Source: Isoetes taiwanensis (Eukaryota > Streptophyta > Lycopodiopsida > Isoetales > Isoetaceae). From it: DNA of 64,000 nt. The translations under genes and the position numbers were made by a program. Every line of letters starts with the position of its first letter. Within the stretch, counting starts at the first letter, position 1. Below are positions 2,292-62,499 of the stretch, one piece after another. Below the pieces are notes generated by a model. The model did no database searches, was not told the DNA's origin, and saw only the letters and a program-made list of their open reading frames with translations. The DNA lies in assembly GCA_021234155.1 (NCBI GenBank), contig JAJEKV010000003.1:23904874-23968873 (forward strand). The letters are read 5' to 3'.

Positions 2292-4398
2292 TAGCATAAT
2301 GACAGGGGGTCATTTTTGTGTTTTTGTACGATATTTACAAAGGTTTTTCTATGATTTCATTGCCGTATTCATCTTGGTGTACTGAACAGTATTTCTAGAG
2401 TGCCGCTTATCTTGACCATTCATTTTTTATGAGAAGCAGCATCGTACGGTCACGATTAAATTTGTAATGTTTTTAGCACTTAAGTTTTCTTAAAAAGGTT
2501 TGGAATTGGGCATGCAGCCATCGAGGCCCTATGTAGTTAGGGTTTTTTTTTTGTTTGAAATGGAAGCAAAGCACGGCAAGGTTTATGTTTCTGCCAAACC
2601 CGAGATGCCCTGCCTGGGGATGCCCAAGGCCGTTGAGTTATGATCTGAGGAGGTCTCGTTTTGGCACCGGCCGCATTCGACCCGTGGGTCTCTCCGCTTT
2701 CAAAACCCGGGTGTGAGGTAAGCACAATTTTGTGCCCTTGAGCTAATCGGGTCTACAATTTTTCCTACGATTTGGAGATTGGCATTTTGGGTTATCTCTG
2801 TCCGGTTCTTGAGGATTCATTTCTTTTCTTGGCATGTAAGCCCACGAACATGATCGAGGCTTTTCCATTCTATTCTATTATCCATCAAAATATTGTGTGT
2901 TCGTAAAGATATTTGCTTGTTTGATTTGTTTGCGAGAGGTGATGCTCTTGATTACGCCAGATGAAGAATAAATTCTCTTTATGAATTAAAGTAGTTATGT
3001 TGGCCCATCTTATTTGGTCGATGAGTTGTGGATGGGGTTTTATCTTTGGAGGTGCAAACTATATCTTTGAGAAGCGGCCGAGATTAGATTCGAATCGTAT
3101 CCATATAGACAAAGAAAAAAATATCCAAAAACATCTCTCTAGAATATGTAAGAAAATGCAGCTTCTGCTCCGAGGTCATCCATCTCATGCATCCTTTTTC
3201 TTGATATTTTGTTATAGGTGTCTAAAGGAGTAGTTGAGAAGGCAAAGCCGGAACGATATGGAACAAAGATGGCCATCCGGGGATCCCGGTTGCCATGCTA
3301 CTTCTCAAGCATTGCCATATCACATTGCTAGATATTCTAAGGGTTTTATGCTATCAATGGTTTCTTGCGCACACCCCGCTAGCCTTCTCGCAGATTTTAT
3401 ATTTGGAAATGCCATGCTTGTTCTCAAGCATTGCCTCCAATTATGGTTACAAATTCGTCCTAAATCCTCCAGAGGAGACCATAATGTTGTTAATCTTACA
3501 ACATTTGAAGCCATTGAGAAGCTAGCGGGTTGTATACACATTATGTGTTCATCTCAATTTCATGTTCCACTCTTTTTTTCTCAATATGTGCTACCGGGCA
3601 AGAGAAAGCTTGTTGCATATTAAAGACTTAAGGATTCACACACAATCCCTCGCAAGTTAAAGCCATTTTATAACAAAGATATTTGCATATATTTGAGTGG
3701 CCTTTGCTATGCAATGCAAGAAATATTCATCCAGCCCTTGGTATACAGGCAAGGCAACCGCAAGGCACACTTTGTAATAGAAGTGAGACTGCAGGCAAAC
3801 GCCCAAAACAGATGCATGTACATAGTGGTGTGGACATGTATGGCATGTATAGAAACATGCAATATAATGTATTTATTTCTATTCATGTTTTTATTACATG
3901 CAATATTGTACTTGGAACAAGGTTATTTTGCACCCGAGATATATATATTTGGAATTTGCTGCTCCTCAAAATTTAACTACGTTCTCTTTTTCTTAGGGCC
4001 CTAAGGGCCCAAAAATTTTTATATGTATATAACATCCACCATTGGCAATAATTAACAAAACCATTATATCCTACATGTTAAAATTAAAATCCCCCTTGGA
4101 CCCCTTTTGGTTTGGGTGCATATTCACACGGGGTCACGAGGGCAGCGAGAGCCCTTAAATTATATTACACACGTATGAAATTGACACCATATAATATATT
4201 AACTCAAATCTTATAGTATTTCGCACACCTGCATATACCGTATATAAAAATTTGTACAAGAATACCCCATAAACGAGGATCGCTATCTACGGTCCACATC
4301 AAGGAATATAAGGCATATATGCTCATCCGAGGGCTCTTGTTGCCCGGAGTGACCCCCCGTGTGAATATGCACCCAAACCAAAGGGGGTCCAAGGGGGA
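2292..4398 (+). mobile_element. hairpin-ended insertion element, copy 1
   Basis: A 2,107-bp insertion inside LINE ORF2, flanked by the 5-bp duplication ATATC (2287-2291 and 4399-4403). It starts TAGCATAATGACAGGGGG. The next ~110 bases resemble the start of the copies ending at 24921 (minus strand) and starting at 59465. It ends in the hairpin at 4087-4398. The interior has no recognised gene; ORFs at 3234-3623 and 3683-3976 match nothing I know. I cannot assign it to a known superfamily. Non-autonomous, since no transposase is seen. Confidence 0.7.
4010..4398 (+). repeat. hairpin module (GGGCCC / TTTGGTTTGGGTGC), copy in insertion 1
   Basis: The left arm (about 4087-4158) carries CCCCTTTTGGTTTGGGTGC followed by CATATTCACACGGGGTCACG. 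The right arm (about 4328-4398) is its inverse complement. Between them is a ~170-bp unpaired core with ATCTTATAGTATTT and CGAGGATCGC. A GGGCCC palindrome (TTAGGGCCCTAAGGGCCC, near 3994-4012) precedes the left arm. The right arm stops exactly at the target duplication, so it is shorter than the left. The same core occurs at 21931-22426, 23028-23755 and 61784-62302. Confidence 0.8.
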
Positions 4399-4403
4399 TA
4401 TCC

Positions 4404-7400
4404 TTGGGATGATGGAGAATGCCTACACGAAGCACGAGACCAGGATATCATATGCCTGGTAGAGACATGGGAACACAGCACAAAGAGGCTACCAGAGGAA
4501 CCAGGTTACACATTGTTCACGTGTTGGAGAGAAAAGAACTATAAATAGGAAGAGGAAGCAGGGCTAGCGTGCTACATTAGGAATAGCAGTATCAAAAAAG
4601 CATGTATTTTGGAAAATGACATTAATAAAAGATACATGCTTATAAATATTGTGTTGATTGATTACAGAAACCTATATTTGCTAATAGTATACTATCCACC
4701 CCAATGTGATAAACTGGAACTATTAAGCATGGGAGAGATTGCCATGAAACATAGGGATAAGGGAATGTTGATCATAGTAGGAGATATTAACGCAAGGACG
4801 GGACGGGAGCAGGCGCAGAAAGCAGGGATAGACAACGAGAGTGGGCACTGGACACAGGCCGGAAGAGGGGAAGAATGGCAACGAGACACAGTAGACGAAA
4901 TGGAGATGACAGCGAGAGGAGAAACATTAATAGAGGTATGTATAGCTACAGATACAATTATATGTAATGGTCTAAGAAGATGGGGGGCTTCAGGCCAGTT
5001 CACAAGCACAAACGCCCACGGGAGCAGTATAGTGGACTATGTGATAGCAAATGAGGAAGCAATAAAAGAAATCGGAAAAATGGAGTTAGGGGAGTGGCCG
5101 CTAGGAAGGAGGGAAGGACACAGACCCATACTGCTCAGGATGAATGTGGCAAGGGGAAGCACAGAAGATCAGCAAGGAAGAGGCAAACATGCAAAAATTA
5201 CAGTTAAATTCAGGGAAAACAGAGTGGGAACATTCATAAAAACGGTAAAAAAGAAAATAAAGGAAAAGGAATGGGGCGAGGGAATGGAGGACAAAGGGAA
5301 TGACATGAATGACATCTTGGAAGAAGCGGCTAAAATGGCGTTTGGGAGGAGAGAAAGAGGAAGGAGGGCTATAGTATTTCGAAGGTCAGTATGGTTTGAC
5401 GAAGTGTGCATAGAACAGCGAAGGAGAGTCAAACAGGCAAAAGGGACTGAGGCATACCAAGAGGAACGCGGCAAATATGTGAAAATACTGAAAAGGAGGA
5501 AAGCTCAGACCAAGAATCACCAAATGATGGATTGGTCAAGATCCGAAAAAAGAGACCTAAGGCATTCGAACAATATGAAAAAAGGATCAAAACGAAAAGC
5601 CGGTACAAAGAATGTGAGGAGGGGAGAGGAATGGAAATAGAAATAGACCGACAAGATACCCGAACGCGTCGTCAGACAAAACAGGGCCTGATCAATCATG
5701 GCCCCGGATAGTAGACACAAACCTCCCTTCTCCGAGGAAGAGGTGACATGGGCACTAAACAAAATGGCAAACAATAAGGCCCCGGATCTATATGGGCTAA
5801 CATCGAGATGTTGAAATGCGCGTGAGGAACAGAGATAGTAGGGATCATAACAAATAATATTCAATGAGGTAGTGCATTCAGCTCCCGGAAAGATGGCGCT
5901 TTAATAGGGTAATCCCGCCCATAAAGGAGGAAACAAAGAAGAACCGAGTAATTACAAGACTATTATGGTCGGGCCGGTAGAGATTCAAATGGTTCGGGAA
6001 AACTTTGGATCGAAACTCGAAATCATGGGCGTAAGGGGAAGCTCGAGCACAAGGCCAAGCCGGTTTTCGACCAGAGTACTCGACTACAGACCATTTGGTG
6101 ACCCTAAGGATAATGATAGAGCAAACAAGGGAAAGTAACAAGAAGATCATATGTTGCTTCGTGGACTTCAAGAAAGCCTTCGACACAATACCTAGAGATA
6201 AACTTAAGAGCACCAGAAGGGTTAGTAGGATCAATTGCAAGGCTATACCAAAAGGTATATGCCAAAACAGAAGGAGAAGGAGAAGCCATAGAATGCGACA
6301 CAGGAGTAAAGCAAGGATGTCCACTATCACCCACACTGTTTGGGATATACATAGATGCCCTACAGAATTTGTCATCGAGAGATTCGAGACAAAGGAAGCA
6401 CCAATGATAGGGAAAACAAAAGTCCCAATAATGCTATATGCGGATGATTTAGGTATGATGGCGACCAAAGCCAAAGGGATGCACAGAATGCTAGAGATAC
6501 TAGAAGAATTTTGCGCGGAGACAGGACTGACAGTCAACCTGGAAAAAACAAAAATAGTGACTTTCGGTACAAAGATAAAACACAGGCCATTTAGATACAA
6601 GGGGAAGGAACTAGAAGAAGCTGCAGGGTACAGATATCTGGGATACGACACACATGGAGGGGGGAAGTGGTCAAAAGGAGCGGATACCAGATTCCAAGCA
6701 GCAATAGGCAATTATTACGCATGATGAATTATTGCAACAACAATAGGATCACCAACTGGGAAATCAAAGCATATCTATTTAGCACAATAGTAGCATCAAC
6801 ACAGCTGTACGGATGTGAGACATGGGGACCGGGCCTTTCAGAGAAGAAATGGGAAAAACAAGAAGGCATATTGAGGCAATGGCACGGACAGGAATTCCAG
6901 GTGAAGACAAGTACATCATTAGCAACAATCTTATATGAGACAGAAGAAAAGCCAATGGAAGTGAGGGCATGGGAAAGAACAATTAGGTATCTATTAAAGG
7001 ACAACAGTTATGGGAAAGAGGATAAACCGCCATCGCTAGCTTATAGATGAATCAGCAAAACAGCACATAACAAAGAAAAGTGGGGATGGTTTAACGAATT
7101 GGCGGCGGGACGCAAGTATGGGGATGCAACTAAGTCAGATTATACAAGCGGATCGGATGGGACGAAGAATGGACAAAAGTGAGCAATGAGGAGTCGGGTC
7201 GGCACGACATAACTAATGTGGCCTAAGGCAAACTGGCTATTAGGAACCTTCAATCCAGGGGGTCAGATAGGACATATCACGTACAAAAGCAGCATGTTGA
7301 ATAAGAGTAACAGGGGAACGCTGGCCAGATTCAGGATGGGGAGCCACGACCTCCGAATTGAGAAAGATAGATGGAGGAAAATAGACAGGGCAGAGCTTAA

Positions 7401-7623
7401 TATGTCAATATGTGACGCAGGGAAAATAGAAGACGAAGAGCACATGGTAAAAGAGTGCCCGGTCTACACCGACATAAGGTCCAAATTTAACAAGGTCAGG
7501 TGGGACCTCCCACTCCCAGCACTGATGGACAAAGAAGAGACACTCACAGATGTAGGGAAAGCTATAAAAGAAATGATAATAAGACACCGGGGGGTGCACA
7601 AAGAGAGAGGGCTAATAATCTGA
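4404..7623 (+). pseudogene. LINE ORF2: APE endonuclease, reverse transcriptase, zinc knuckle (broken)
   Basis: Endonuclease: DQDIICLVETW (about 4441-4470, catalytic E), GDINARTG (near 4775), SIVDYVIA (near 5030) and EGHRPI (near 5116) are the L1 APE-type motifs. An in-frame TAG lies at 4546-4548, and the longest intact piece is 4609-5640. Reverse transcriptase: motif A FVDFKKAFDTIPRD (about 6158-6199), motif B GVKQGCPLSPTLFG (about 6303-6345, in another frame) and motif C LYADD (about 6431). The 3' part has LYGCETWGPG (about 6806) and a C-terminal zinc-binding pattern CDAGKIEDEEHMVKECPVY (about 7411-7466). At least three frame changes make it non-functional. Confidence 0.85.
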
Positions 7624-7886
7624 GAAGCACGGATGAGGCGGATCAGAGAGGCCCACAAAGCACAGTTCAAAACTGTTTATAGCGATGCATTGTGTATGAC
7701 CAAGAAGCCAGATATAAGTACGATGCGGGTAATATAAAGAACAAGAGAAGCCCGCTAGATGGCTACATAAAACCTATGCGTCTGTTTGCTGGCAGCACCC
7801 TTTGGGAGCTTGCAGGATGCTACACATGTCCGGGGGCCTCACGGCCTGAGGGACGTTAATGTATATTCTATTCTATTCTATTCTAT
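7624..7886 (+). other. LINE 3' UTR with (TTCTA)n tail
   Basis: Non-coding sequence after the ORF2 stop. Near the end GGGGGCCTCACGGCCTGAG can form a small stem, followed by four to five TTCTA units at 7866-7886. A pentanucleotide tail instead of poly(A) marks the 3' end. The LINE fragment ending near 16178 has the same tail and a similar GGCC-rich stem. Confidence 0.7.
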
Positions 7887-8354
7887 CTGACCAAGATGAT
7901 CTTAAGACTGACAAAGACGCCTTAAAGGAGATTGATCTTTCCTACAATGTCCAATTTAGGAAGTTATCAAGGTCGCAGGTATGTGCAAAACTTAGTGTAT
8001 GTTAGTCTTATCGTTATTATTTTGACACTTGTCATCTCTGTTGTTGTCAAACTGCTGCAGGTTTGTTTTCATAGAGGAGAATTGCTAATGGATGAAGCAG
8101 GGCGTGAGTTCGACCAGAAAGCATCAGATGCATTGAAGACTTATTGTAGGGAGGTTGACAAGCTTTTCAGGGAGATTAAGCCATGACACTTGCAAAGAAC
8201 TTTGAAGTACATCCATGAGCAATTTGGTGATGGGCTATGCGAGGTGGACATCATCAGATTCTTGAAGAAGCGTTGGAGACATTGGAGGTTAGAGATTTCT
8301 ATAAGCTTTAAAAGGTTCAACACAAATTATAGCGTATTCTTGTGTCATAGCTGA
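7887..8354 (+). pseudogene. two exon-like segments of an unrecognised gene
   Basis: A segment starting directly after the LINE tail reads TDQDDLKTDKDALKEIDLSY... and ends at a GT donor after 7978 (GCAG/GTATGTG). A matching acceptor (CTGCTGCAG) ends at 8060. The second segment, 8061-8354, reads VCFHRGELLMDEAGREF... and is open except for one TGA at 8184-8186, after which ...EQFGDGLCEVDIIRFLKKRW... continues in frame. I do not recognise the family. It may be the 5' part of the gene at 9198-10040, truncated by the LINE, or a separate captured fragment. Confidence 0.4.
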
Positions 8355-9197
8355 TAAGAACAGGAAAAGCCAATTTGCAAAAGGTGTCATGGATTTGAAA
8401 CTCCACTTTGCTGCTGCTGCATGCAAGATTTTGCATGGAATCAAATGAGTCTGAAGCTTGGAGCTGAAAGGATGGCTCTTTGCATCATCATCATCCTGAA
8501 TTCTGACACACTGTTTTTATTCCGTCCAATCCATTTCTGTGTATCATATTCTTTCTTCTTACAAAGCCTCAGGCTGCCATAATGCTGCTGCCATAATGCT
8601 GCTGTTTAACCTTCCAGGAATCAGGCATTTGGCAAATGATTATGCATCATGCTTTGATGCACACGCAGTGTATTTTATGTAATGTTCTTGCTTCTAATCA
8701 TCATCATTACCATCATCTTTCTTCTGAAAGAGAAATTTCTTGTGAAGCAAACTTCCTCGTTGCTTTGTTAATACTAAACAAACTCTTTTTCTGGCAATTC
8801 CTTGCTTGTTTTTTCTGTGGCGTTACAGTCTTGTGTCCCTGTTTTATAAACTTTGACTCCAACCAGAAATTGATAAATATATGGACTGCAAACCTGTGCA
8901 ACGTGTGCAACGAGCATTTGGACAGTGACATCAACTACCATTGAAAGTACTTTTTTGGTATTTGTCTCTCTGGATTGTCCTTACAGTTTGGGAGGCAATC
9001 TTCAGTTTTTGTTTTTGTTCATTGTTTATTGGTTTGTTTTGTCTTTGAGGTATTGTATGCTTCCTTTTATTTCTTGGATATTCTATTAACACTATCTTTT
9101 GAGTTTCCTTAGAGGAGAATATTCATAAATGGCTTTTGGAATCTTTTAGCGTATTCTTGTGTCCACTATAATCATGTTACATTATTTCTTATTTCAG
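8355..9197 (+). other. non-coding stretch, possible intron
   Basis: AT-rich with T-runs; no gene recognised. It ends in a polypyrimidine tract and TTTCAG acceptor (9191-9197) that opens the next exon, so part or all may be intron. Confidence 0.35.
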
Positions 9198-10040
9198 GGA
9201 TAACCTTCGCAGAAAGGTCCGCACCAACAATGCACCCAAACCAATGCATGTAGATGAAGAGAGTTGGAAAAGGTTTGTCGAACTTTGTGGGAAGACATAT
9301 CAGCGCCAAATAGATGCAGCATCCAAACGCAAGAAGCAACAACGAGCTGGTTCAGGAGGGATCATGTCAATAAAGTCAAAATTTGTAAGCTATTTTCTAA
9401 TTAGAGAATGGGAATTACCATGTAGTTAATGAAATATTTCATTTAATTCAATTAATCATCAAAGACATGAAATCAATGTATTCATTTTTGTAATTAATGA
9501 AATATTATGCAGTTTCAAGATTGGGGCTCCATGCCTACAAATGATCTTATACAAGAAATAATTACAAAAGGGGGATATGAAGCCTTTAGAAAAAGGATGA
9601 TTGCGAAGGGGTTTGTGCCAAAAAAGGTAAGTTTACCTTTTTATAGGTTCAAATATATCAAAATTTTAAGAGCTGCATTTATATTATAGCATAAGGCATT
9701 GGACTATATAAGAGGATCAAGCCCAGGGATAATTTTCAAGACTAAATCCAAGAAGGAGATAGAAGTTATGAATAAAGTAAGTGTATGTAGATTGTTATTT
9801 TATAGTCAATTTGAATTTACATTAATCTCACAGATGTATCTTATAAATGTAGAACACATGCTACATTGATAGCGAGTCTGATAAGGAAAAGGTATGAAGT
9901 GCCAAATTTGATTCATGTTATTCACCTTTGTTCAAATAGATCTAACTTCTGATTTGTTAAATTAGGAAGAGGACAATGATGAAGCCAACCAAAATGAGGT
10001 CGAAGGCGATAGAAATGATCTTGAGAATGGAGAGCATTGA
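9198..10040 (+). CDS. Ptta/En/Spm-family plant transposase-like protein (CACTA accessory, TNPA/TNP1-like), 3' exons
   Basis: Five exons with GT-AG introns and consistent phase: 9198-9384, 9513-9626, 9690-9776, 9853-9891 and 9966-10040 (stop TGA). The first exon contains EESWKRFVELCGKTYQRQID and ASKRKKQQRAGSGGIMS. This is the pattern of the plant Ptta/En/Spm transposase family: W..FV..., then a basic stretch and a Gly/Ser-rich hinge. The last exons encode an acidic tail (EEDNDEANQNEVEGD). These proteins are usually the second product of CACTA elements and bind subterminal repeats. The N-terminus is missing or lies upstream. The exons are free of stops and all splice sites are intact, so this part looks younger than its surroundings. 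Met 9244 is the first ATG but probably not the true start. Confidence 0.7.
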
Positions 10041-11021
10041 AGTTTGTTTTTTGCATTAATTTGAAATTTTAAGTTCTTTGTTTATGAAATTTAAAGTTCT
10101 TCATTGACTTTTGAGAAAGGAGGCAATGAAACTTGTCATTGCATATGACTAGTACCTCCTTCATGTATGAACTCCATATTTAATGAGAAAAATTGCTTAT
10201 GTTCACGTCAAGTTATCTCACTTTAATGAGAAAGTTGCTTTGATATCTTAGTTGGAAGACGAAATGCACATAAACTAGTTAGAAAAAGTGAATACAAAGT
10301 GTTGCAAGTATTATAGAATTTTGCAAATAGAGCCTTTAATTTGACGAAGATACTTTGGTACTGTTCCTGCCACCTTTATGACACAAAATCCCATATTGTT
10401 TTGTACACACAAATTAGTCCCCTTGGTTTTTAAATTGACAAAACGGGTGCATTATATTTATTACTATCTTGTCATAATGTTGACATTTGTTGTGATACAA
10501 AGGTCACTTCCTCATTTTCATATAGTCCCCCGAGATGTACGGGGATATACTCAGTTATAACCATTAGTCCACTAATTTGGTTCTATTATGTTGGTTCCCG
10601 AGATATAGATAAGGAATTTGTCGTTCTTATTCTAGGTGGAGAGTGATCCACACCGAGGCACAGCTACTATGTAAAATATACGAAGTTATACTTACTGCAT
10701 AATTCTATATTCTATTCAAAGGGGAAAATGTTTCTCTCAGATACATTTCCTGGCCTTTTTAGCCATTCTTACACATATTCGATTTTTCAGACAAAAGATT
10801 TTTCAGATCCCTTCTGATCGGGATTATCTGCACTGAGCTTTTTCCAGCCAAAAGCTGTTACAAATTATCTATCCTTGGCGGCCTCCCAAGACTTAATATC
10901 ATTGTTGGATCTAAACAGATTGATCAAAGGATAATTTTAAACCAAAAGAAAAAACAGAAGAGATTAAAACAAAAAGATATGACCGAAAAGGAAGGCCCAC
11001 ATCCCCTTTTTCCTGAGCGGA
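10041..11021 (+). other. non-coding stretch
   Basis: AT-rich DNA after the exon series. No gene, repeat or terminus was recognised. Confidence 0.4.
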
Positions 11022-12731: not shown

Positions 12732-14653
<1,922 letters not shown>

Positions 14654-14657
14654 CCAA

Positions 14658-15052: not shown

Positions 15053-15056
15053 CCAA

Positions 15057-15302: not shown

Positions 15303-15478
15303 CAAATAAACAAGACATTTGCAACCAAGAAATCTCTCCAAGACATTTGCAACCAAGAAATTAAAAACATCTAAGAATGCAAATTAGATCTGACCTCTCC
15401 TTCGGCACCATTTCCATTTGATTTTTCTCCTTTTCTTTCATTGATGGCCTGAACCAATAAACAAATTCATTGATGGCA

Positions 15479-16644: not shown

Positions 16645-16646
16645 TA

Positions 16647-21109: not shown

Positions 21110-21113
<4 letters not shown>

Positions 21114-21930: not shown

Positions 21931-22426
21931 CTAATACAAACCATTAACACACAACTACCATTAACATTATTAACACAAACCATTGTATTTAATACATTTA
22001 AATTAAAATCCCCCTTAAACCCCCTTTGGTTTGGGTGCATATTCACACGGGGGGTTACGTAGGGCAGCGAGAGCCCCTAAAATATATTTATAATACATGT
22101 ACAAAATTAACACCATTAAGTACATTCTCTCAAACCTTATAGTATTTTGCAAACCTTAATATACAGTGTACAAAAACTTGTACATGCATACCCCACAAAT
22201 GAGGATCGCTATGTACGGTCCAGATCTTGGAATAAAGGGGTTATATGCCCACCCGACAGCTCTCGTTGCCCGGAGTAACCCCCGTGTGAATATGCACCCA
22301 AACCAAAGGGGGTTTGAGGGGGATTTTAATTTAAATGTATTAAATACAATGGTTTGTGTTAATAATGTTAATGGTAGTTGTGTGTTGATTGTTATATTAA
22401 AAAAAAAATTGGGCCCTTCGGGCCCT
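21931..22426 (-). repeat. hairpin module, copy outside the 11.2-kb element
   Basis: Arms about 21943-22095 and 22245-22395 contain CCCCCTTTGGTTTGGGTGCA and its inverse. The ~150-base core has CGAGGATCGCTATGTACGG. The GGGCCC palindrome lies on the right (22411-22425), so the module is inverted relative to copy 1. The left arm is truncated next to GATAT (21926-21930), the same target word as in copy 1. No matching element start was found to the right; the 11.2-kb element begins 28 bases further on and may have separated the two ends. Confidence 0.75.
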
Positions 22427-22440
22427 AACTTCAGTTAGCC

Positions 22441-22745: not shown

Positions 22746-23028
22746 ATGAGTGCTTGCTCATCACCACAGCCCAAGCAAGATGCCGGTGCTTCCGGCGGTG
22801 GAATTTTACCTCCAAGGAGTTTACGTTTGGGTTCTGAGGTGATCCAAGCCAAAGACCTCCGTGAGAAACATGCAGAGGCCCACATACCCAACCTAGAGAT
22901 GGTTATGAACGAGGTATGGGGTGAAGCTCCAAAAAACAGACGAGGATTCAAGGAAGGGAGAATCCAGAACGCATGGAAAGATGATTTTTTTAAATATTAT
23001 GAATTGGTTTATGGCAAGAAACAGGTTA
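22746..23028 (+). pseudogene. first coding segment of the Ulp1-like element gene
   Basis: An open frame from Met 22746 (MSACSSPQPKQDAGASGGGI) through SLRLGSEVIQAKDLREKHAE and AWKDDFFKYYELVYGKKQ. It is cut at 23028 by the palindromic insertion. Charged and probably helical; no known domain. It lies just inside the left inverted repeat, the position of a first exon. Whether it belongs to the same transcript as 24927-25611 is inference from order and strand. Confidence 0.45.
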
Positions 23029-23755
23029 CATATAAAAATTAAATCCCCGAACACATAACAACCAACACATAATAACCATTGACATTAACAACCAACACAT
23101 AACTACCATTGACATTAATTAACACAACCATTGGGTCCAACACATTTAAATTAAAATCCCCCTTAAACCCCCTTTGGTTTGGGTGCATATTCACACGGGG
23201 GGTGACTCCGGGCAACGAGAGCCCTCATAATTGTATTTTGCACGTACGAAATCAACACCATATAGTATTCCGCTTGAAATCTTATAGTATTTTGTGAATC
23301 TTGTTATACAGTATAGCAAATTTTGTACTTGCATACCCCACAAACGAGGAACTTTACGTACGGTTTAGATTAAGGAATAAGGGGTAGGCATATTCACCCC
23401 TTATTCCTTAATCTAAACCGTACGTAAAGTTCCTCGTTTGTGGGGTATGCAAGTACAAAATTTGCTATACTGTATAACAAGATTCACAAAAAATACTATA
23501 AGATTTCAAGCGAATACTATATGGTGTTGATTTAAATGCGTGCAAAATACAATTATGAGGGCTCTCGCTGCCCTACGTCACCCCCCGTGTGAATATGCAC
23601 CCAAACCAAAGGGGGTTTAAGGGGGATTTTAATTTAAATGTGTTGGACCCAATGGTTGTGTTAATTAATGTCAATGGTAGTTATGTGTTGGTTGTTAATG
23701 TCAATGGTTATTATGTGTTGGTTGTTATGTGTTCGGGGATTTAATTTTTATATGT
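23028..23755. repeat. near-perfect 728-bp palindrome
   Basis: Arms 23028-23384 and 23397-23755 pair almost perfectly around a 12-base centre (TAGGCATATTCA, near 23385-23396). Unlike the other hairpin copies the ~170-base core is also duplicated in inverse, so no long loop remains. It contains the CCCCCTTTGGTTTGGGTGCA module in both arms. The outermost six bases ACATAT are target sequence on the left but lie inside the element on the right. Confidence 0.85.
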
Positions 23756-23947
23756 TGGATGCCTCATAATTGTATTTTGCACGTAACTAGAATTCATTTG
23801 AGGCTTTCATCTGTAGCTTTTGAATTTGATCACAATAAAACAAATAGAACATAAGTAAAAATTACCATAAAGATAGAGCAGATTGATCCCATTATTCTGA
23901 AAGTTATAAAGTTTGCAATACAAAGAAAACCCCCTGTTATTATGCTA
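23034..23947 (-). mobile_element. hairpin-ended insertion element, copy X
   Basis: Minus orientation. It starts at 23947 with TAGCATAATAACAGGGGG and ends at 23034 in the palindrome. It is flanked by CATAT on both sides (23029-23033, 23948-23952). 914 bp, mostly the palindrome. Beyond the first ~28 bases its start differs from the other copies. It lies directly next to copy Y, which uses the same CATAT word. Confidence 0.65.
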
Positions 23948-23952
23948 CATAT

Positions 23953-24921
23953 TGTTACTTCCGCTACAGCTATTTCTCTTTCACAATGACACCATTGTTT
24001 ATCAATCCATATGATTTTGGATGCTCCATCTCTAGCTTAAAGGTAATGCATGATTCACCTTATGGTTCGATTAAAGTTCCAAACCTACAATATAAATGGA
24101 TTCTTGTGGCCACTGTTTGACTGATCTGCGTGACATGGAAAAGGGCGTGGAATAATCCGCCTGTTGTGTGCATAAGAATCCGTTTGTTGATTGAAGCTAA
24201 AGGCTGACTGCTATGAACAATTCGGCAGCCAGGAATATCCAAGAGTTGGAAGCAAACGTAGGGCCTAAACTCTAAACTCTTTTTGAATCTGCAGCAAATC
24301 TTAGGAAGGAAACAAAAGGGGGTTTTGCAGCACTACATTGTAGAATCAAGAAACCAATACCTTGTAAAAAAAACACTATGCTAACTGAAGAAACATTAAA
24401 AAACAAAACAAATACCTTTGTAAGTGTGAGCAAAAAATCCATCTCGTGGTAGTAAAATCCACTCCGGCAATAAGAATCCAAGAGGGCAAGTACACATGCA
24501 TATGCACACATGCACACACATGCACATGCACTTGCACTTGCACTTGCACTTGCACTTGCACTTGCACTTGCACTTGCACTTGCACATGCACATGCACAAT
24601 ACACATGCACATGCATATGCACAATATACATGAACATGCATATACATGCACATGCACATGCACATGCACATGCACATGCACACACATGCACATGCATGTG
24701 CACATGCACATGCATACACATGCGCAGTGTTCATGCACAAACACATGCAGAGAAAGACAACAACCCTCGGATTGTTCCAACCAACAAAAATCAACGGCCC
24801 ATAAAGGGTGCACTCTAGAAATACTATTTAGTACACCTCAACAAATACAACAACGAAATCATAGAAAAACTATGTGAAAAAGCGTATAAAAATCTAAAAG
24901 TAACCCCCTGTTATTGTGCTA
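23953..24921 (-). mobile_element. insertion element, copy Y
   Basis: Minus orientation. It starts at 24921 with TAGCACAATAACAGGGGG, and the next ~110 bases closely match copy 1 (shared TTTTTCTATGATTTC and AGTATTTCTAGAGTGC). CATAT precedes it (24922-24926) and follows it (23948-23952). The 969-bp interior contains the GCACTT/GCACAT microsatellite. No hairpin at its other end, unless it shares the one in X. Confidence 0.6.
24487..24722. repeat. hexanucleotide microsatellite (CACTTG)n / (CACATG)n
   Basis: A core of about nine CACTTG units (24530-24582) is flanked on both sides by irregular CACATG, CATATG and ACACATGC units. A period that is a multiple of three with no stop word keeps all frames open on both strands, which explains the long artificial ORFs here. 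Confidence 0.9.
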
Positions 24922-24926
24922 CATAT

Positions 24927-25611
24927 TTCAACCTATTTTGCCAGAGCATTTGCTCTTCACTTGAAGGGACGGCTTGTTGATTGGATGGACGTGGCTAGGA
25001 CCGCCAAAGATCTTGCCAAAACCCTCAGTTCAGACGTTACAGAGGACCCTACAACAGGTAAATCCTCAACTATCAAACAGGACATCGTATTGCAGCAGAA
25101 TATTAGAGCCCTGGCTTATTCTAGATCAGATGTTGACACAATAAAGCAGTTACTTAAGCATGGGTTGGAGGAGAAAACTAACCTATTGAATGAAGTAGAA
25201 GCCTTGGGAAGAAAAAGGAGGGATGCATTGAAGGTCATCAGCCGGATTGAGGGTAGAAAGGATATGCTATCCCAAGATCCGCAGCAGATCTGCCGTAAAA
25301 ATAGATGAGACAAAACAGAATTTGACAAATTGTCCCGTGATCCTGCTGGAAATGCTGTTATGTTCGGAGTGTTGAAGTACAAGTTGGAAGACTTGGTTAT
25401 GAGTAGACATGATAAAGAACAACACTCTTCTAAGCTAGAAATTGGTTTGCAGGAAGCAACTAAAGACATTGAAAGGCATGAAATCTCAATTGAACAAGCA
25501 AAGGAAAAACTTAATTGCATTGAATTGGTTCGGAAAGGCATTCACAGATTTTGGATTTCATGGGGAGAGCGGGACCTATTGTTCTCAAGACCCGAGGCCC
25601 CTACCCTGTAG
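24927..25611 (+). pseudogene. coiled-coil segment of the Ulp1-like element gene
   Basis: The frame resumes after insertion Y with ARAFALHLKGRLVDWMDVAR, and continues through VDTIKQLLKHGLEEKTNLLN and RRDALKVISRIEGRKDML. A TGA at 25306-25308 interrupts it, and the same frame goes on with EFDKLSRDPAGNAVMFG, EQHSSKLEIGLQEATKDIER and EQAKEKLNCIELVRKG. The composition is that of a long coiled coil. No enzymatic motif; its function is unknown. Confidence 0.45.
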
Positions 25612-53600: not shown

Positions 53601-54820
53601 TATGAAGATGGAATATATTACATGGTATCACTCATATTATATACGAAGGCAAACATGTTACATTTTGGACTTATGATATCCATTATTGAATGTGCCATGT
53701 TGCAATGGACTAAATGACATTTATCTGTGCATGTTTCATTTTGATGTAGGCATATTGATGGGCACCCTAAATAAATTCCAAATAATTTATATCTGGGTCT
53801 TTGATAGTTTCGGAAATGCATATCATGCTTTGTGAGATTCCATCCTCTTGCTGTTAATATTTGACTGTTGCCAAGCAAGTGTGTCGTGGTAAACGTTTGG
53901 ATGATTGGATGCCTCATTGCTCAAAGGAAACAAAGGAGTCTGAATAACTTCTAGATAAGTTATAGCCATATATGTCGTGTCATTCCAGGATTTAACTAAA
54001 ACCTGAGCGACATGTTGTGGAGGTTATTGATGTTGCATTTTATAAATGTTTTAGCTTTTATTCGAAAAACATCTCAACATTTCATCAACATTTTATTTCC
54101 TAAATGATATGCCTCACAAGGTTTATGCACACTTGGTTATTCTTGAGTTTGATTCTTATATGTTTCGAGCATTTGCAAGCAACTATTTCTCATATGTCTG
54201 TAGACACACCGATTCCATTGCATGTTTAAGGCATTTGCAAGCAACTATTTGATATGTGTCCCTCTATATGCTAATTTCAAATTTAGTCATACAGTTGCAC
54301 CTTCATTACATACAAGCCATTCACTATATGGTAGGGCTCAAAGTCTTACACGCATGAACTTGCACTTCTTGAACTATAATAGAGACCAATGCCTTTCTTT
54401 ATACAATTATCTAGATTTTCTATGAATGATTTTCAATAGATCCTAAATATCATAATCTCATCATGACATGCTCTGTAACTCTTAGAAGGAAGACAAGTAT
54501 GTGCTAAAGGACGTGTTTCTTTGATTCACAGGTCTTTCTTCAGGAAATAGGGACATGGATTGTAACTCATATTGTGCCATTCCTCTATGATAAAATGTGG
54601 ATGTGTATCAAATTGCTACTCATACGTGAAGGAAAAGAAATTCAATGGTTGACATAAAGCCAATCATCTACATGCCACAAAATGACTCTACTCATATATA
54701 TGGAGAATTGGACATCCATATTCGTCATCTTAATTTCAATTTCCAATAGATATCTAAATGTTGTTGGCCTTGCCATCTTCATACTAAATTGAATCGCTAC
54801 AATTTTGCTACCGAATTTTG
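50662..54820. other. long unassigned stretch
   Basis: No defended gene. Small local duplications occur, e.g. CATCCATAGT...GTTTGCTCAA at 51300 and 51345, and GCATTTGCAAGCAACTATTT at 54170 and 54230. It may be the interior of the Helitron ending at 55227. Confidence 0.35.
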
Positions 54821-54821
54821 A

Positions 54822-54975
54822 GGGCTAAAAGCCACTTGCTTTACCACGTCATCCTAGATTAATTTCTACAGTTTTGTTGCAATTCTCTATCATGTTTTCC
54901 ATCATTGTAAGAGTACGCTAGAGAATATTAAGGGCCGAAAGCCATTTGTTTTACCATGTCCATCCTAGATCCATC
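54822..54975. repeat. diverged tandem duplication, ~105-bp period
   Basis: GAGGGCTAAAAGCCACTTGC followed by TTTACCACGTCATCCTAGAT recurs about 105 bases later as AAGGGCCGAAAGCCATTTG followed by TTTTACCATGTCCATCC. CATCATTGTAAGAGTA also appears twice (54901, 54972). Confidence 0.65.
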
Positions 54976-55198
54976 ATTGTAAGAGTATGTACGACACATT
55001 GTCAGAGATCCATTCTAAAGGCATCTTTTTGGGCATTTCTATTGCACACTAAATCAACACAAAACATGCAATAATGCCCCTCGCATCCACATTCACATTC
55101 TTACCTTTCTTCCTATTTAGAATCATGTCAAATGCAAAAATTACCACATTTTTTCTTCTAGCCAACAATAAAACCACCAACCTTTCAAATTGTAGAAA

Positions 55199-55227
55199 AG
55201 CCCGGCAACGCCGGGCACCATAACTAG
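55199..55227 (+). mobile_element. Helitron 3' terminus
   Basis: GCCCGGCAACGCCGGGC is a perfect hairpin, followed by ACCATAACTAG and T, the classic Helitron end (hairpin, ~10-base gap, CTAG, insertion before T). It has a close relative at 16644. The 5' end was not identified, and no Rep/helicase protein is present nearby, so it is a non-autonomous copy. Confidence 0.8.
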
Positions 55228-55975
55228 TTGATTATAATAATAAAGAATTCGAGGAAGAATAGAATTGGATATGTTGTAGAACACTATTGTCAACATTAGT
55301 TAGTTTGTTATGATCAATTGTTTCTATAGCATATGCAATTTGTTGCCAATGAGAGATGGCTAAAGGATGTTGATTGTTTGATCCTTTGTACTCGACTTAC
55401 CGACGATTGCAACGCATCACCTAGGAGATAGCTATTGAGCCTAGCACGCTAAGTTCTCCCTAGTAGTCTCTCCACACCATGGGTCCAGTTGTCACCAGAC
55501 AAGTCCTCACTTGTACATCCCCGACAAATCCCGCTACCCACAACCAACCAGGGTCAAATCCCGCTATCCACAATCGTTTAGGGTCCTATGCACGGGTCGC
55601 ATATAATTGGGAATTTTTGAGACCAAGCTAGAAGCACCATCTACAATCGCTTTTAGAGCTCTACCTTTCCTCATACACAAGAGGTGCAAAAAATGACCAA
55701 CCATCATCATAGAAGATCCATAACTTGATAAATAACACTAGAAACGTGTGCCCGACAGTGCCGAGCATTTGTGGACATGTGGAATGGTTATTGTAATGGA
55801 CTTCGTAGGTTGTACATGTAGTTTGTCCTATAAATGGAGTGTCTGTGAAGAGTTTACAATTTAGGAAGATGAGGCAAGTCAAATATAACCTCGGGGAGAA
55901 CTAAAACTTGTCAAATATAACCTCGGGAAGCATATTATGTCAAAGGCGAAGTAAGTTCTGCATGTTATAACAAGT
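55228..55975. other. unassigned stretch
   Basis: No gene recognised. A partial copy of the 43.7/47.2-kb repeat end lies at 55927-55972. Confidence 0.4.
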
Positions 55976-55977
55976 TA

Positions 55978-56070
55978 GTTTTGTGGTTGGTTTTCATCGA
56001 AATTCATTGAGAAAAAAGAGCTCAATTGCAGCTCGTTCTAAACGAAGTAAAATTATTTCTTGGGGCCAAG
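55978..56070 (-). repeat. short dispersed repeat, copy b
   Basis: Partner of 35342-35440. A T-run followed by seven G lies 80 bases further on (56149-56177). Confidence 0.6.
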
Positions 56071-56691
56071 ATAGAACAAAGCACTTTTTGTGTAGATAGA
56101 ATGGATTAAGATAGGGCTCAAAATGGTTGTGGGTACAGATCTCTTTCCTTTTTTTTTTTTTTTTTTTTTTGGGGGGGAAGGGGAGGAGGGACAAGCAAAG
56201 AACCCGATCTTGCATGCATTTATACAGAGTTGTAAGTAGTTTTTTCTTTATGGATGTTTATGTGACTGGATTAAGAAGAGGATCATGTAAATATGCAGAT
56301 GTTTGCTCTAAGAAAACTTGTCAAGACTACCTTGATAGACACATGTTGAGTATATAACTGCTAAAGGACCTCAGCCTTGGCTCTAAATTTATCTATGATT
56401 TTGGCAATTCCAGTGCAAATCTTTCATTTGTTCCCTTACCAAATACCTCTTTTTGGATTGCCCTTAGAGGACAAACCCTCGCTCATATGGCTTTTTTGGC
56501 ATATTCTAAATATATATTGAAATATGACTAGAATATATAAAAAACAGCTTCAAATTGGCTGTTTTCAGTAAACTGTTGGCCACCTTATTGCCGGTTGCTA
56601 CTGTTCGGACTGCTAACCGATATGAATTTTCGATGCTATGCAAGGTACGTACTGGACTCAAAATTTATCGTAAGTTTTTGGAGATCTTTAC

Positions 56692-57679
56692 GCTTCCGAG
56701 AAACAGGAAGAGTATTGGCGATAGTAGGAGTTCTTGACGCATTTCCATTAGGGAAGATTGATGCCCTTCAGCAGCTCTTCCTTGCAGGAAATTCTTTGGT
56801 GATTACACAAACACATGGATTCGAAGCCAGGTAAGCAGAGGTTCTATTTTTTCGTTTCATACTGAGACTCTGTGATCAGAGTTTTGAACATATCTTTGCC
56901 ATCATATATTAATAACAAAAACTTGAAGATGGCTCCAAAGTCAGGAATGAAGTTTGTGATTCCTAAACAAGCTATCACTTCTCCCCATTGCACGAGGTTC
57001 TACAAAAGTCGATGCAACAAATGCTAGTGTTTAAGGAGATCCATTGCAGTCTTGGCGAAAGACAAAATGGGGTGTTGATTTGACTCAGGACCTTACTGTC
57101 AAGAGGGGCAAAGCACTTGCACTATAGGTTGTTGATTTAAACTTAATGTAAAAGAAAAGACTTATATTTGATTGTTGCATGTCTTGTGATGTCTTTTATT
57201 TCCTTTGGATTGGGCCTTGCCTTGATTTATCTCTATGCTCCTCGACCGTGCCAAATATTATTCCAAGACCTGCAGAAGCAGTAGATTGAAATGTTGTTGA
57301 TCAATTGATTTTATAGATTGGCCAATTGCCATGAAAGTTGCCTGATGGCTTGTGAATGTCCTGCGTTAATTGTTCATTTGACGGCTAGAAGATCAGGAAA
57401 TCCCTGAGCACTAGAATCCTATGCTGACTCATATCGTCCTAGGTTGAGGAGATTTAAGGACTGCCATTAGAAGTCTTTAAGGCCTGTACTTGGATATTTG
57501 GAACAACCTCAGTCTATCTGGTGAGGAGGTGAATATACAAATAACTGGAAGGTTGGGATTATAGAGTGGCAATGATACTGAGGTGATGGCATCGAAGGGA
57601 GTAGATATTGAACAAGATATGGGGAGCTTATTGAATGATTAGAGCTTGTTAGTTCTGCTACATTTCCATGCTATAGTTT
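56692..57679 (+). repeat. gene-derived segment, copy b
   Basis: Partner of 34229-35273. The exon reads LAIVGVLDAFPLGKIDALQQ, then LFLAGNSLVI, up to the GT donor near 56832. An upstream open part (56595-56690) is unique to this copy. The similarity stops exactly at 57680, where the Copia LTR begins; copy a continues there with AGCGTCAAATC. Confidence 0.75.
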
Positions 57680-58198
57680 TGTTATTGAATTAAGCAAATG
57701 TCTAGCAAATAGATTATTCAATGATTACAACTTAGCCACACTTACAAAATACAATAGACCTTTTCAATAGTCTTAATGCAAATAACCATTGAATTAATCT
57801 ACTGTAGCAATGGAATGAAACACTGTAGCTTATAATTTCCACGACAACTTAGACAAGCAATGCCGACAGCCCAGGCATTCATCAATAGATGAATCCAATT
57901 AAAATCACTTGCACCCCAGCCGATTTGATCTTCTCTGCTTCTTATACAGTGTTAGGCGGCACCGATTCACCAAGAATCAGTCCCGACGGTCATGGACTTG
58001 CTATACAAGTCCTATTCATATTTGCCTCTCTTTTTCCTTTGAAAATATAACTTCAATGAACCTTTAACCATTTAAAGTCTTCAATGGTCTCGATGGGTTC
58101 AAACGACCCTTGTATGCATAGTCACTTCATCTAGTAAATAGGTTGCTCCATAGCCTACCATGGCTAAATACACCTTAGGTATCTGTGAACTTTCAACA
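57680..58198 (-). repeat. 3' LTR of Copia element 2
   Basis: On the minus strand it starts TGTTGAAAGTTCACAG and ends ...TTAATTCAATAACA, with TGTT...AACA borders. The outer border is independently fixed by the break in similarity with the segment at 35273. 519 bp. The 5' LTR is beyond the window. Confidence 0.75.
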
Positions 58199-58349
58199 TG
58201 CAACCATCACTGTGCACTTCTCAAATGCAGTTCCAGTTATCACATGGATCAACTGGATCAACTTATTATAATATGAACAACTCCTTCACTCTCCCTTCAT
58301 ATTATAATCTGTGCAGCTTATCATTTTCCTCAAGTTACAGAATTTGCTG

Positions 58350-59459
58350 TCAGACAGAGATTTTGTTAACGTCTGCCAAGTTCATATTTGTATGAACATA
58401 TTGCACCTGTATTATGTTTCTTTGCACCAAATCTCTAATGAAGTGCATTTCCAATTCTATATGCTTTGTTCTCTCATGCATTATTGGATTTTTTGTCATA
58501 GCAATACAGCTAGTACTGTCAGACTGTAGAACCAAAGGATCTTCTTGTTTCATATAGAGCTCTTCTATAAGCCTTCTAATCCATACAAGTTCCTTAGCAG
58601 CTAGAGTTGTGGCTGAGTACTCTGCCTCAGCAGAGGATAGAGCAATAGATTTCTGTTTTTTGCATTTCCATGAGATAGGACCACCACCTAGCATAAAGAT
58701 AAATCCAGAAGTAGATTTTCGTTCATCAACATCTCCAGCCCAGTCTGAGTCACTAAAGGACTTGAGTTCAAGATTATCACTATTATATTCAATTCCAAAA
58801 TTGATTGTACCTCTGAGGTATCTAAGAACCCTTTTTGCTGCCTGCCAATGGGCTGAACCTGGATTATTACAATATCTGCTTAGCATGTTAACTGCAAATG
58901 CAATATCTGGCCTTGTGCTATTGGCTAGATATAATAAACAACCAACCAATTCTCGATATGGAACATTTTGCATTTGACTCCTTTCTTCTTCAGATTGAGG
59001 ACACATACTATTTGAAAGTTTGTAACCAGCTACCATTGGAGTTTTAACTGCTTTTGAGTCTTCCATATTGAATCTTTTCAGCACACCTTCTATATTTTCT
59101 CCTTGGAATAATGACAATGTTTTGTTTACTCTGTCTCGATAGACTTCTATACCTAGAAACTTCTTCAATTCTCCCAAATCAGACATTTTGAACCTCTTAC
59201 TCAGAATATTCTTGCATTTTTGCAAGATCTCATTATTACTGCTAAACATCATGTTGTCATCAACATATAATGCAATATAACAGAATTCATTAAAGATAAA
59301 TGTTTCCATCATTATTCAATTTTGCAAATCCCTGCTCTTTCAAATAGGAATCCATGCAAATGTACCACTGCCTTGGAGATTGTTTTAGTCCATAAACTGC
59401 CCGTTTTAATTTCCATACTTTATCTCTCCCTTGCTCAAAACCAGGTGGTTGTCTCATGA
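58350..59459 (-). pseudogene. Copia element 2 polyprotein, C-terminal half: reverse transcriptase and RNase H
   Basis: Begins at the insertion border with IFMRQPPGFEQGRDKVWKLK, then RAVYGLKQSPRQWYICMDSY, IALYVDDNMMFSS (YVDD), LGELKKFLGIEVYRD, LVGCLLYLANSTRPDIAFAV and YCNNPGSAHWQAAKRVLRYL. RNase H: SDSDWAGDVDERKSTSGF, SSAEAEYSA and HERTKHIELEMHFIRD. There is one frameshift near 59315. The end is cut by a second near LADVNKISV, where ADVLTK is expected. Otherwise open over 960 bases, so fairly young. Confidence 0.9.
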
Positions 59460-59846
59460 ATATGTAGCATTATAACAGGGGGTTTTCTTTGTGATTTTAT
59501 ACGCTTTTTGGCATGGTTTTCATATGATTTCATGGGCGTATTGCACGAGGCATACTAATTAGTACATCTAGGGTGCGCATTATATTTGCATACGCTTGAA
59601 TTAATTTTGATGCCTATTTTCAATAGTCTAGACCCATATATGATATATTTTTCTATTATGTTCTATTTTTCCTATTGCATTTTATTTTGCTCGACATGCA
59701 AAGCTCGAGCAGCTCATTTTAGGGTTCCTATTTCCTCAAAAATTAGTTCTCTGGCTTATGGTTTCTATTGTAAGGGATCTCGATTGTTGGTTCCAGAAGC
59801 ATTTCGAAAAGCAATCTGCTTCCCTGATTAATCCGTTGAAACATAC

Positions 59847-59923
59847 ATTTGCCATGACAGAAAAACTGCCGGAATGGATTTGCATACATTTGCCGTCACA
59901 GAAAAGCTGCCGGAATGGATTTG
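59847..59923 (+). repeat. two tandem ~38-bp units
   Basis: CATTTGCCATGACAGAAAAA followed by CTGCCGGAATGGATTTG is repeated directly as CATTTGCCGTCACAGAAAAG followed by CTGCCGGAATGGATTTG. Confidence 0.8.
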
Positions 59924-59966
59924 TTGTTTGCAACCTTTTGTGCAGACCAGGTAATACTCATCTTTT

Positions 59967-60281
59967 TTGCTGATGAAGTTGGATCATGCTTTGGCAGATG
60001 CCCTTAAACGAGGGATTCCTGAACTGCAAAGAGAAGATTTTTTGAGCAGCTGTCAGGTTGAAAACGTTATAAGGAACTACACTATAGAACGGCATTGGCT
60101 GTCTCTTAATGAAGAAACGGGAGGCATGAATGACATTTTATATCGCCTGTATGCTATTACAGTATGTTATTCTGAAGGATTTTTCTGTTTAGTTAGGACA
60201 CACTTGAGAAATATGTTTAACAGGGATCCTGTTTTAGCATCAGGGGAATGCTGGACATTTAAAGTTGGCACATCTGTTTGA
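59967..60281 (+). other. coding-like segment carried by insertion 3
   Basis: Open frame LMKLDHALADALKRGIPELQ, then REDFLSSCQVENVIRNYTIE and LNEETGGMNDILYRLYAITV, directly following a CAG-rich pyrimidine stretch. It looks like a genuine protein fragment (balanced, helical composition), but I do not recognise the family. Probably a host exon captured by the element. Confidence 0.35.
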
Positions 60282-60428
60282 TAAACCGTGCTTTCTTGGC
60301 CCGTTAGCTGTTCAGGTACTTATAACTGGATTTCCTTGGTATTTCATATGTATCAACTTGCATATAGCAACTGTGGTTGGATTGAGCCTTACATGTGGCT
60401 CGACCATGTTTTCTGTGCAGGATGTTTT

Positions 60429-60749
60429 CTGTGCCTTTCTACTGTGAGTAAAAAGAATTTCTGTAAAGCGACCTGCATGCCATGTTTCCTGTGCTGACTT
60501 TTACATAAATTAGAGATGGATGAAATGAAAATAAAGCGAGCTCCCTCTGAGGCGACCTAGAAGTTCAAATTATGAAGTTGTTAAAGATGATATTTATAAG
60601 GTTTGCCTTTCTACTGTGAGTAAAAAGAATATCTGTAAAGCAACCTGCATGACACGTTTCTATCTCTGGCTTTTACACAAATTAGAGATGGATGAAAGGA
60701 AAATAAAACGAGCTTACTCCCTGTGATGCAACCTAGAAGTTCAAATTCC
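60429..60749 (+). repeat. tandem duplication, ~175-bp period
   Basis: Units at about 60429-60571 and 60604-60749 share TGCCTTTCTACTGTGAGTAA, AAATTAGAGATGGATGAAA and CCTAGAAGTTCAAATT, with about 10% differences. A third small doublet, GGAGATGTGGAGATATT, follows at 60870 and 60897. Confidence 0.75.
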
Positions 60750-61600
60750 ACAGTACTGCCTGTTGCAACACAGCCTTTAGAGAGTAACTTCTTTTAGAAT
60801 TATCATTGTTTGTGCTATATTGTCTGCCTACTGAATGTCACGCAGGAAACGTGATTCATTCTCCTCTTGGAGATGTGGAGATATTATTCTCCTCCTGGAG
60901 ATGTGGAGATATTAAGTAATAAACCTATTATCGCCATGTGTTGAAGCAAGATGAATTCTAGGTGATGTTGGAGCCGTCATGACAGATTTCACCTCTTCTA
61001 CTCCTCCTCAATCTTGATTATTTTTGCCGAAAGGTTAGTCCTAAGAGTTTTTTTTCCTTCCAAAAGCTCCACTAAGAATGGCATCAAAGCAAAGATGATG
61101 ACGCGATGTTTGTGACCTAAATGCCTTCCTCATATTGATTAATTTGCGATTTGAAATGCAAGTCTTCGGCCGGGTCATGCGGTTTTGGCCCAAAGGATTT
61201 CTTTTGTGTTAAGTTCTTACTACAAATTACCTATTCCTCAAGTCCGCATCCGAAGTTGGGCTTCTAGAAGCATTATGCGGTTTATATCAAAGCAAAGGTG
61301 AGGAATTCACATTTTTACGGCTTTGGTCTAGGAAAGTAAGATTGAATTCTTACTAGCAAAAAAATGCTTACACAAAGGTGACATTATTTGCATGGATTGT
61401 TGTTGCAGGGATTCTTAAGGTTTGATACCATGGCAAGTTGCAATTCTTGATTCATAGTCCACGTGAATAAAAATATGGATAGCTTGCTTGAATATTTGTG
61501 GTACTTTGCATCAGTTTGGATCTGTACCCCGTGGGATGGTATTGGTTGTGGGCATTTTGTAATTGCCCATGATTGGGCCTTATCCATGTGATTACCTTGC

Positions 61601-62491
61601 GTATTTCTTTCAATGAACATGAGTCTTATTATCACGTTCATAATTATCACGTTATGTAAGCTTATTGGCCTCCCTTTCAACTAAAGATTGTAGAGTGAAA
61701 CTTATCATGTCATCCTGGATATTGCATTGCAAAGAAAAATAGAGGTTTTATAGTTCTACACAAGATATGTTGCCATCTCTTTGTTTCCCTAAGGGCCCGA
61801 AGGGCCCAAAATTTTTTTTTTAATATAACAACCAACACATAACTACATTAATTAACTTAGACCATTGCATCCAACATTTTTAAATTAAAATCCCCCTTAA
61901 ACCCCCTTTGGTTTGGGTGCATATTCACACCTGGGTGACGTAGGGGCAGCGAGAGCCCTTTTAATTATATTTTACACGTACAAAATCAACATCATATAGT
62001 ATTTTGCTTAAAATCTTATAGTATTTTGCAAATCTTGTTATACAGTATAGCAAATCTTGTACTTGCATATCCCACAAACGAGGAACTTTACGTACGGTGT
62101 AGATTAAGGAATAAGGGATGAATATGCCTATCCAACAGCTCTCGTTGCCCGGAGTCACCCCCGTGTGAATATGCACCCAAACCAAAGGGGGTTTAAGGGG
62201 GATTTTAATTTAAAAATGTTGGATGCAATGGTCTAAGTTAATTAATGTAGTTATGTGTTGGTTGTTGTATTAAAAAAAAATTTTGGGCCCTTCGGGCCCT
62301 TAGGGAAACAAAGAGATGGCAACATATCTTGTGTAGAACTATAAAACCTCTATTTTTCTTTGCAATGCAATATCCAGGATGACATGATAAGTTTCACTCT
62401 ACAATCTTTAGTTGAAAGGGAGGCCAATAAGCTTACATAACGTGATAATTATGAACGTGATAATAAGACTCATGTTCATTGAAAGAAATAC
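61601..62491. repeat. 891-bp palindrome ending insertion 3
   Basis: Arms 61601-61957 and about 62133-62491 are near-perfect inverse copies. Outer part: GTATTTCTTTCAATGAACAT through a ~190-base unique stretch to TCCCTAAGGGCCCGAAGGGC; inner part: the CCCCCTTTGGTTTGGGTGCA module. The ~175-base core in the middle is single-copy (GTATAGCAAATCTTGTACTT). The outer 190 bases are not found at the other hairpins, so the arms have grown by inverted duplication of local DNA. Confidence 0.85.
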
Positions 62492-62499
62492 ACCATATG

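Follow-up and report, generated by a model that had tools for sequence, protein, structure and literature searches.

The window analysed here, a 64,000-nucleotide stretch of the Isoetes taiwanensis genome, holds three insertions of a large element family in which one end, the head, is exact and abuts a short target word, and the other end is ragged and tied to a large hairpin. Insertion leaves no target duplication, the same head is found in front of different bodies, and in one copy the far end is extended by a fold-back. In its behaviour the family resembles one-ended transposons such as Helitrons and IS91, with other termini. We assign a probability of roughly 45% to the reading that its members are non-autonomous one-ended transposons that move head-first as DNA in that style, with the ragged end being closed by host repair.

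A search of the assembly (1,658,258,908 bases in 1,110 contigs) with the 18-bp core of the head, TAGCAYWATRACAGGGGG, returned 7,947 exact occurrences (3,944 + 4,003) and none for the reversed control; the family is thus real and large. In the window, the fixed end was found at exactly the four places given in the original prediction when up to 3 mismatches were allowed, with 0.30 occurrences expected (100 shuffles, largest count 3). Directly before the core, 7,364 of the 7,947 heads (93%) read ATAT[CG], hereafter ATATS. Among 56 distinct flanks, ATATS is present in 51, of which 46 have an A before it, and four of the five flanks that lack it come from one satellite array. The fixed end extends 5-6 bp farther outward than first described, to (A)ATATS. 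Past the core, about 110-130 bp are kept across subfamilies (28 heads aligned; W2, L037, L041 and L048 are exceptions), in agreement with the ~110 further bases originally ascribed to three of the four window heads; the unit at 23034-23947 shares only about 27 bp. All 40 copies of one head type (40/40 among the matches listed) are 99-100% identical, indicating that heads can be very young. The TAGCA-first strand of the head has the better predicted fold (z of -3.0 versus -0.3 on the other strand; 18 sequences, 100 column shuffles each), a single weak result that weakly favours this strand. No poly(A) or simple-repeat tail was seen at the fixed end.

A tandem satellite of ~462 bp also has, in its unit, the beginning of the fixed end (AATAAG or AATATG, then TAGCA...ACAGGGGGTTCC); it makes up all of L050 (8.5 copies of 462 bp by TRF) and is present in L041 and L037, and the insertion site of the copy L003 is a relative of this satellite. 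No description of the family was found among the open-licence papers searched.

The three elements and their associated features are located in the window as follows.

2286 to 4397, forward strand: element 1, with the head AATATCTAGCATAATGACAGGGGG at 2286-2309 and a ragged hairpin end; right border given to about ±3 nt; five insert-free relatives (L052-L056).
4089 to 4399, no strand: hairpin of element 1, with arms at 4089-4133 and 4355-4399 (98% complementary) and a loop of 221 nt.
21939 to 22434, forward strand: solo hairpin module, in which a search of the inner side found no fixed end.
23029 to 24927, reverse strand: element 2, a composite, with an outer head at 24904-24927, an inner head at 23930-23953 and a hairpin end near 23029; right border given to about ±2 nt; four insert-free relatives (L067-L070).
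23028 to 23755, no strand: giant palindrome at the far end of element 2, with a turn of ~10 nt at 23386-23395.
59459 to 62494, forward strand: element 3, with the head AATATGTAGCATTATAACAGGGGG at 59459-59482, a body and a hairpin end; right border accurate to within a few nt; based on insert-free flank relatives (L024, L025, L027, L028) and subfamily copies (L001-L011).
59955 to 60310, forward strand: probable captured GH127-like exon, then a GT...AG intron (Pfam PF07944, a weak E of 0.14; no PDB match).
61601 to 62491, no strand: fold-back of element 3, with arms at 61601-61820 and 62272-62491 (100% complementary).
61785 to 61939 and 62154 to 62308, no strand: module arms of element 3 (91% complementary); the fold-back arms reach beyond them, into unique interior DNA.

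Four independent insertions had originally been counted. The middle two, at 23034-23947 and 23953-24921, are rejected as separate events and form one composite, since their junction recurs in other copies: among nine copies with the outer body it is found in L031, L033 and L036, and in altered form in L032. The outer unit stops exactly before the inner unit's AATATGTAGCA. The insertion sites of the elements are repeated DNA, and the names LINE, Ulp1-like gene and Copia reverse transcriptase (RT) given to them are those of the original prediction. Two subfamily copies, L002 and L005, carry an identical insertion at two genomic places; as their flanks match, they probably reflect a segmental duplication and not two events. 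No Rfam family scored above gathering in the window. Relaxed thresholds gave 58 matches in the composite and three in element 3, none of which reached its gathering score; most were microRNA models on the hexamer repeat or the palindrome.

Each insertion had further been described as flanked by a 5-bp target duplication of ATATC or ATATG. Such a fixed-length duplication is a main ground for excluding Helitron- and LINE-like mechanisms, and it is refuted by relatives of the flanks that lack the insert. These were obtained for ten insertions, with L009 represented by its left side only (its far end joins another repeat) and L031 excluded, its right flank lying inside a local tandem repeat. An alignment script placed the left side of every one of the ten and the right side of six out of nine, the latter within -3 to +40 nt of the cut; the right sides of L003, L006 and L010 were judged by eye. 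The empty site of element 1, GTACGGG/ATATCCTTGGG (the slash marks the cut), has a single ATATC in five relatives, and the right-hand ATATS at 4398-4402 is native target. For the composite, the empty site is GGTTGA/AATATAATGGTTTGTAACC (four relatives), the target is gone down to TGTAACC, and the right-hand ATATG at 23029-23033 belongs to the hairpin arm. For element 3, the empty site is CTCATG/TATATGTCTTC...GTTGTGACATCC, the filled copy is short of ~35-40 bp, and the right-hand ATATG at 62492-62496 is probably filler, a copy of flank sequence (CCATATGA). A Copia relative (L026) has its own short deletion near locus position 1490, at the insertion place of element 3; this deletion differs, and the target missing from element 3 may therefore be an older deletion. 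Beyond the window, target loss is zero in L008 (one relative) and L033 (three relatives), ~9 bp in L001 (four relatives) and ~95 bp in L006 as measured on one relative (L128). For L010, three of four relatives already contain the left AATATG as native sequence, and the right joint shares TGTTG, while the empty site of L003 is approximate because this copy lies inside the satellite. A search with the two flanks of L005 joined together gave no empty site among the matches listed, and the sole 5' flank relative of L040 (L133) bears a degenerate copy and no empty site.

The words at the two ends agree with this. The left word is ATATG in 11 of 11 additional copies, and ATATS stands directly at the right end of the module in none of them (L143 has ATATC ~10 nt beyond). 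Across 24 copies with a visible right end, the first 13 of which were a non-random choice, ATATS lies at or within that end in nine (element 1, the composite, element 3, L001, L003, L005, L008, L010 and L031) and is absent from 15 (L006, L011, L033, L040 and the 11 additional copies); L007, L012, L032, L034, L036 and others, in which the end lies beyond the sequence covered or is ambiguous, were left out of these counts. The left ATATS is mainly element sequence, and the same word at both ends of an insertion need not mean a target duplication. With the duplication refuted, both Helitron/IS91-like one-ended transposition and a reversed form of target-primed reverse transcription return as candidates.

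Insertions enter in front of target words that resemble the element's own start. The target beside the cut resembles AATAT, with a mean score of 0.82 over ten sites versus 0.46 elsewhere in the same flanks and no score as high in 100,000 random draws; the matches in L001 and L033 are weak (0.5 each). The element's own start, too, makes a good target, and this accounts for the composite. The identity of S depends on the head subtype, with G/C counts of 57/7 for TAGCATAATAAC, 11/9 for TAGCATTATAAC, 10/1 for TAGCACAATAAC, 0/4 for TAGCATAATGAC and 1/0 for TAGCATTATGAC (chi-square p 1.9e-5; 100 of 7,364 rows counted by eye, with some cells small), and this points to an element-borne S. The G of ATATG is non-native in the composite, L001, L003 and L008. 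As for the A before ATATS, L001 keeps a native T, and the element 3 copy has A where its relatives have T.

At the other end of the element stands the hairpin. A 27-bp sequence from one hairpin arm has 10,371 exact occurrences genome-wide (5,190 + 5,181; control 0). On contigs C1-C33, for which both match lists are complete, an exact arm lies within 3.5 kb on the inner side of 40 of 64 heads and on the outer side of 4 of 64, and 39 of 77 modules have a correctly placed head; this linkage to the inner side of the head identifies the hairpin as the element's other end. Many modules lack a head and many heads lack an exact arm; 38 of the 77 modules on these contigs have no exact head within 3.5 kb, like the solo module of the window. 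The module takes two forms. Elements 1 and 3 have a stem-loop, and the composite has a giant palindrome whose halves are reverse complements of each other on either side of a ~10-nt turn. In element 3 the outer arm extends over 220 nt, matches its partner at 100% complementarity and takes in unique interior DNA, compared with 91% for the module arms. The simplest reading of this extension, seen in one copy, is that the 3' end folded back and copied itself.

The far ends differ, as originally described, and sit in one hairpin module or its extension. Right ends differ in 11 of 11 additional copies and across the 24 copies with a visible right end, and their junctions are ragged, with short shared words and target losses of 0 to ~95 bp. 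No second conserved terminus, neither terminal inverted repeats (TIRs) nor CTRR, was found in the copies examined. The original picture of an element fixed at one end, variable at the other and bearing a hairpin there is supported genome-wide, without the duplication. The earlier statement that the family fits no LTR, TIR, Helitron or LINE element loses its argument from duplication; lacking TIRs and CTRR in the copies examined, the family is still no textbook case of Helitron/IS91-like transposition or of reversed target-primed reverse transcription.

Behind the head, bodies have been swapped. The copies L146-L148 and L149-L152 share ~243 bp at 98% before continuing into unrelated bodies, and L012 has only ~285 bp in common with its subfamily. 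One body contains two stretches of ETF-ubiquinone oxidoreductase (ETF-QO; best PDB match 2gmh, E of 4e-9 and 3.5e-7), and between them lies GAHILSGNVFEPRALNELFPDW, which we take to be a third. These stretches are separated by intron-like gaps and all lie on the TAGCA-first strand, as do the probable GH127 exon of element 3, which was probably captured, and its GT...AG intron. The other interior frames examined matched no family. Captured genomic DNA is the best account of exons with intron-like gaps; unspliced antisense RNA would also account for them.

The preferred reading, head-first DNA transposition, would proceed as follows. An enzyme supplied in trans would recognise the 5' head, that is (A)ATATS, TAGCAYWATRACAGGGGG and ~110 bp, open the donor there and join the element's first base to a target nicked before an AATAT-like word. 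The element strand would then be copied or displaced from the head until the large hairpin stops progress. The far end would not be cut at a fixed place; rather, a free 3' end, sometimes after fold-back self-copying, would be joined to nearby target by microhomology-mediated host repair, with small deletions and filler. A run past the hairpin would bring in neighbouring DNA, so that one head would come to meet many bodies, including host-gene pieces with introns. The moving form would accordingly be DNA, the steps would follow in this order up to the repair step, and the enzyme, a single-strand nuclease and transferase acting on head and target, may be of HUH type, from resident Helitrons or a relative, with the tail left to host end-joining.

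Several of these features have counterparts in the plant Helitrons and in Helibat/Helraiser. In the published account of Helraiser, the left end is essential, ~24% of colonies (6% when corrected for copy number) remain without the right end, and the hairpin is proposed as a terminator whose read-through gives new 3' ends (PMC4778049). The family shares one essential end, a hairpin end without a sharp border, the capture of flanking genes by read-through and the absence of a target duplication; an A, either target or element, stands before the word in 46 of 51 flanks. It differs in that 5' TC is absent (the head begins (A)ATATS TAGCA), no fixed 3' CTRR is present (right ends vary over 24 copies), the hairpin near the 3' end has arms of 45-155 nt as against a palindrome of 16-20 bp, and the right junction is ragged with loss of target. 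A HUH transposase normally cuts the second end cleanly, and ragged joints that cost target DNA are unusual for this class of enzyme. Two tested Helitron terminal features are absent, and the family is thus not filed as Helitron. IS91 and ISCR elements of bacteria possess one fixed end beside a target word and a variable other end, as the family does; the differences are the eukaryotic host, another target word, ragged repair-like right junctions and the hairpin end.

Helitron RepHel genes are very common in the genome, and some of their frames are open for more than 1,000 aa. At least 150 scored matches to Helitron_like_N were obtained among 1,813 candidates genome-wide, and one locus (L125, 2218-6753) has a RepHel frame of 1,512 aa. 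This abundance may be counted in favour of a HUH-type DNA mechanism. The head was absent from all ten regions upstream of Helitron Rep genes (3.4 kb each) and from two further loci with PF23343; the latter had been tried as a Replitron lead and rejected, the scanned one being a Helitron and the other similar to it. Helitron termini were sought in one pair of copies, 97.7% alike over 5.4 kb upstream, in which the boundaries were not resolved. Inspection by eye of two interior places behind each of 20 heads recognised no Rep or RT frame; 19 of these heads had no exact arm within 3.5 kb among the matches listed, and one lay on contig C35, outside that listing. No autonomous copy, as sought in the original prediction, was found in this small sample, and since the sampled interiors are a small part of ~8,000 heads, absence of the enzyme is not shown. 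Against DNA transposition stand the lack of an enzyme gene with the head in these samples, the ragged joints and the lack of 5' TC and 3' CTRR.

A serious rival, though the less probable one, is target-primed reverse transcription read in the opposite direction. Here, the fixed end would correspond to the 3' terminus of an RNA (...CCCCCTGTTATWRTGCTASATATT) pairing with a target AATAT; the nicked target would prime synthesis, and copying would stop or turn back at the hairpin near the RNA 5' end, giving 5'-truncated copies. One fixed and one truncated end, short shared words, filler, target loss of up to ~95 bp, an element end identical with the target word and fold-back copies would all follow, and the ragged end is accounted for at least as well as by DNA transposition. 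The conserved 110-130 bp common to different bodies likewise recalls LINE and SINE tails, which are conserved and shared by different bodies. However, this reading requires an antisense RNA, as the exons and their intron-like gaps are on the TAGCA-first strand; no RT frame was recognised by eye in the sampled interiors, the RNA strand has no conserved fold (z of -0.3), and a poly(A) or simple-repeat tail is absent from the fixed end. Read in reverse, a 5'-truncated LINE resembles the family in that its 3' end is fixed while its 5' end varies, with short words shared and target lost there, and differs from it by poly(A), duplication and RT, none of which was found here, and by the captured introns, which lie on the opposite strand. 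The junctions of Agrobacterium T-DNA, as described in PMC8395108, resemble those of the family in their deletions, filler and microhomology; the family differs in being resident in the genome and in having one exact end with a target word.

It is quite improbable that the copies are non-autonomous Replitrons, which are HUH transposons with short direct terminal repeats. According to a review, Replitrons occur in algae, bryophytes, lycophytes and ferns and make 2-8 bp duplications (PMC10741241). A lycophyte host, the lack of TIRs, sizes of ~0.9-3 kb and short direct terminal words in some copies (AATATG at both ends of L008) are compatible with this description, but the empty sites do not have the 2-8 bp duplications given there, the far end is ragged and 15 of 24 copies have no terminal word at the right end. 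Elements of the TIR and LTR types differ as well, as both matching terminal repeats and a fixed-length duplication are absent from the copies examined. Finally, a transposase or integrase making a true 5-bp duplication at ATATS, as first proposed, can be set aside almost entirely: ATATS does lie on both sides of the window elements, and element 1 alone is compatible with an ATATC duplication plus one extra A, but the empty-site relatives of the other insertions, the 0/11 count in the additional copies and the unequal left and right words of L003, L006 and L010 speak against it.

Returning to head-first DNA transposition, the family may tentatively be regarded as a eukaryotic transposon with one enzyme-defined end, the head of which joins targets like its own first bases while the tail is left to hairpin and repair. 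If such a one-ended class is real, every insertion would make a new 3' end and could pick up neighbouring genes. The ~8,000 exact heads, one type of which is near-identical among its listed copies, constitute a natural record of one-ended gene capture and of new ends; counting their junctions would allow tests of the loosely defined Helitron 3' end and of the part that host end-joining plays in transposition.
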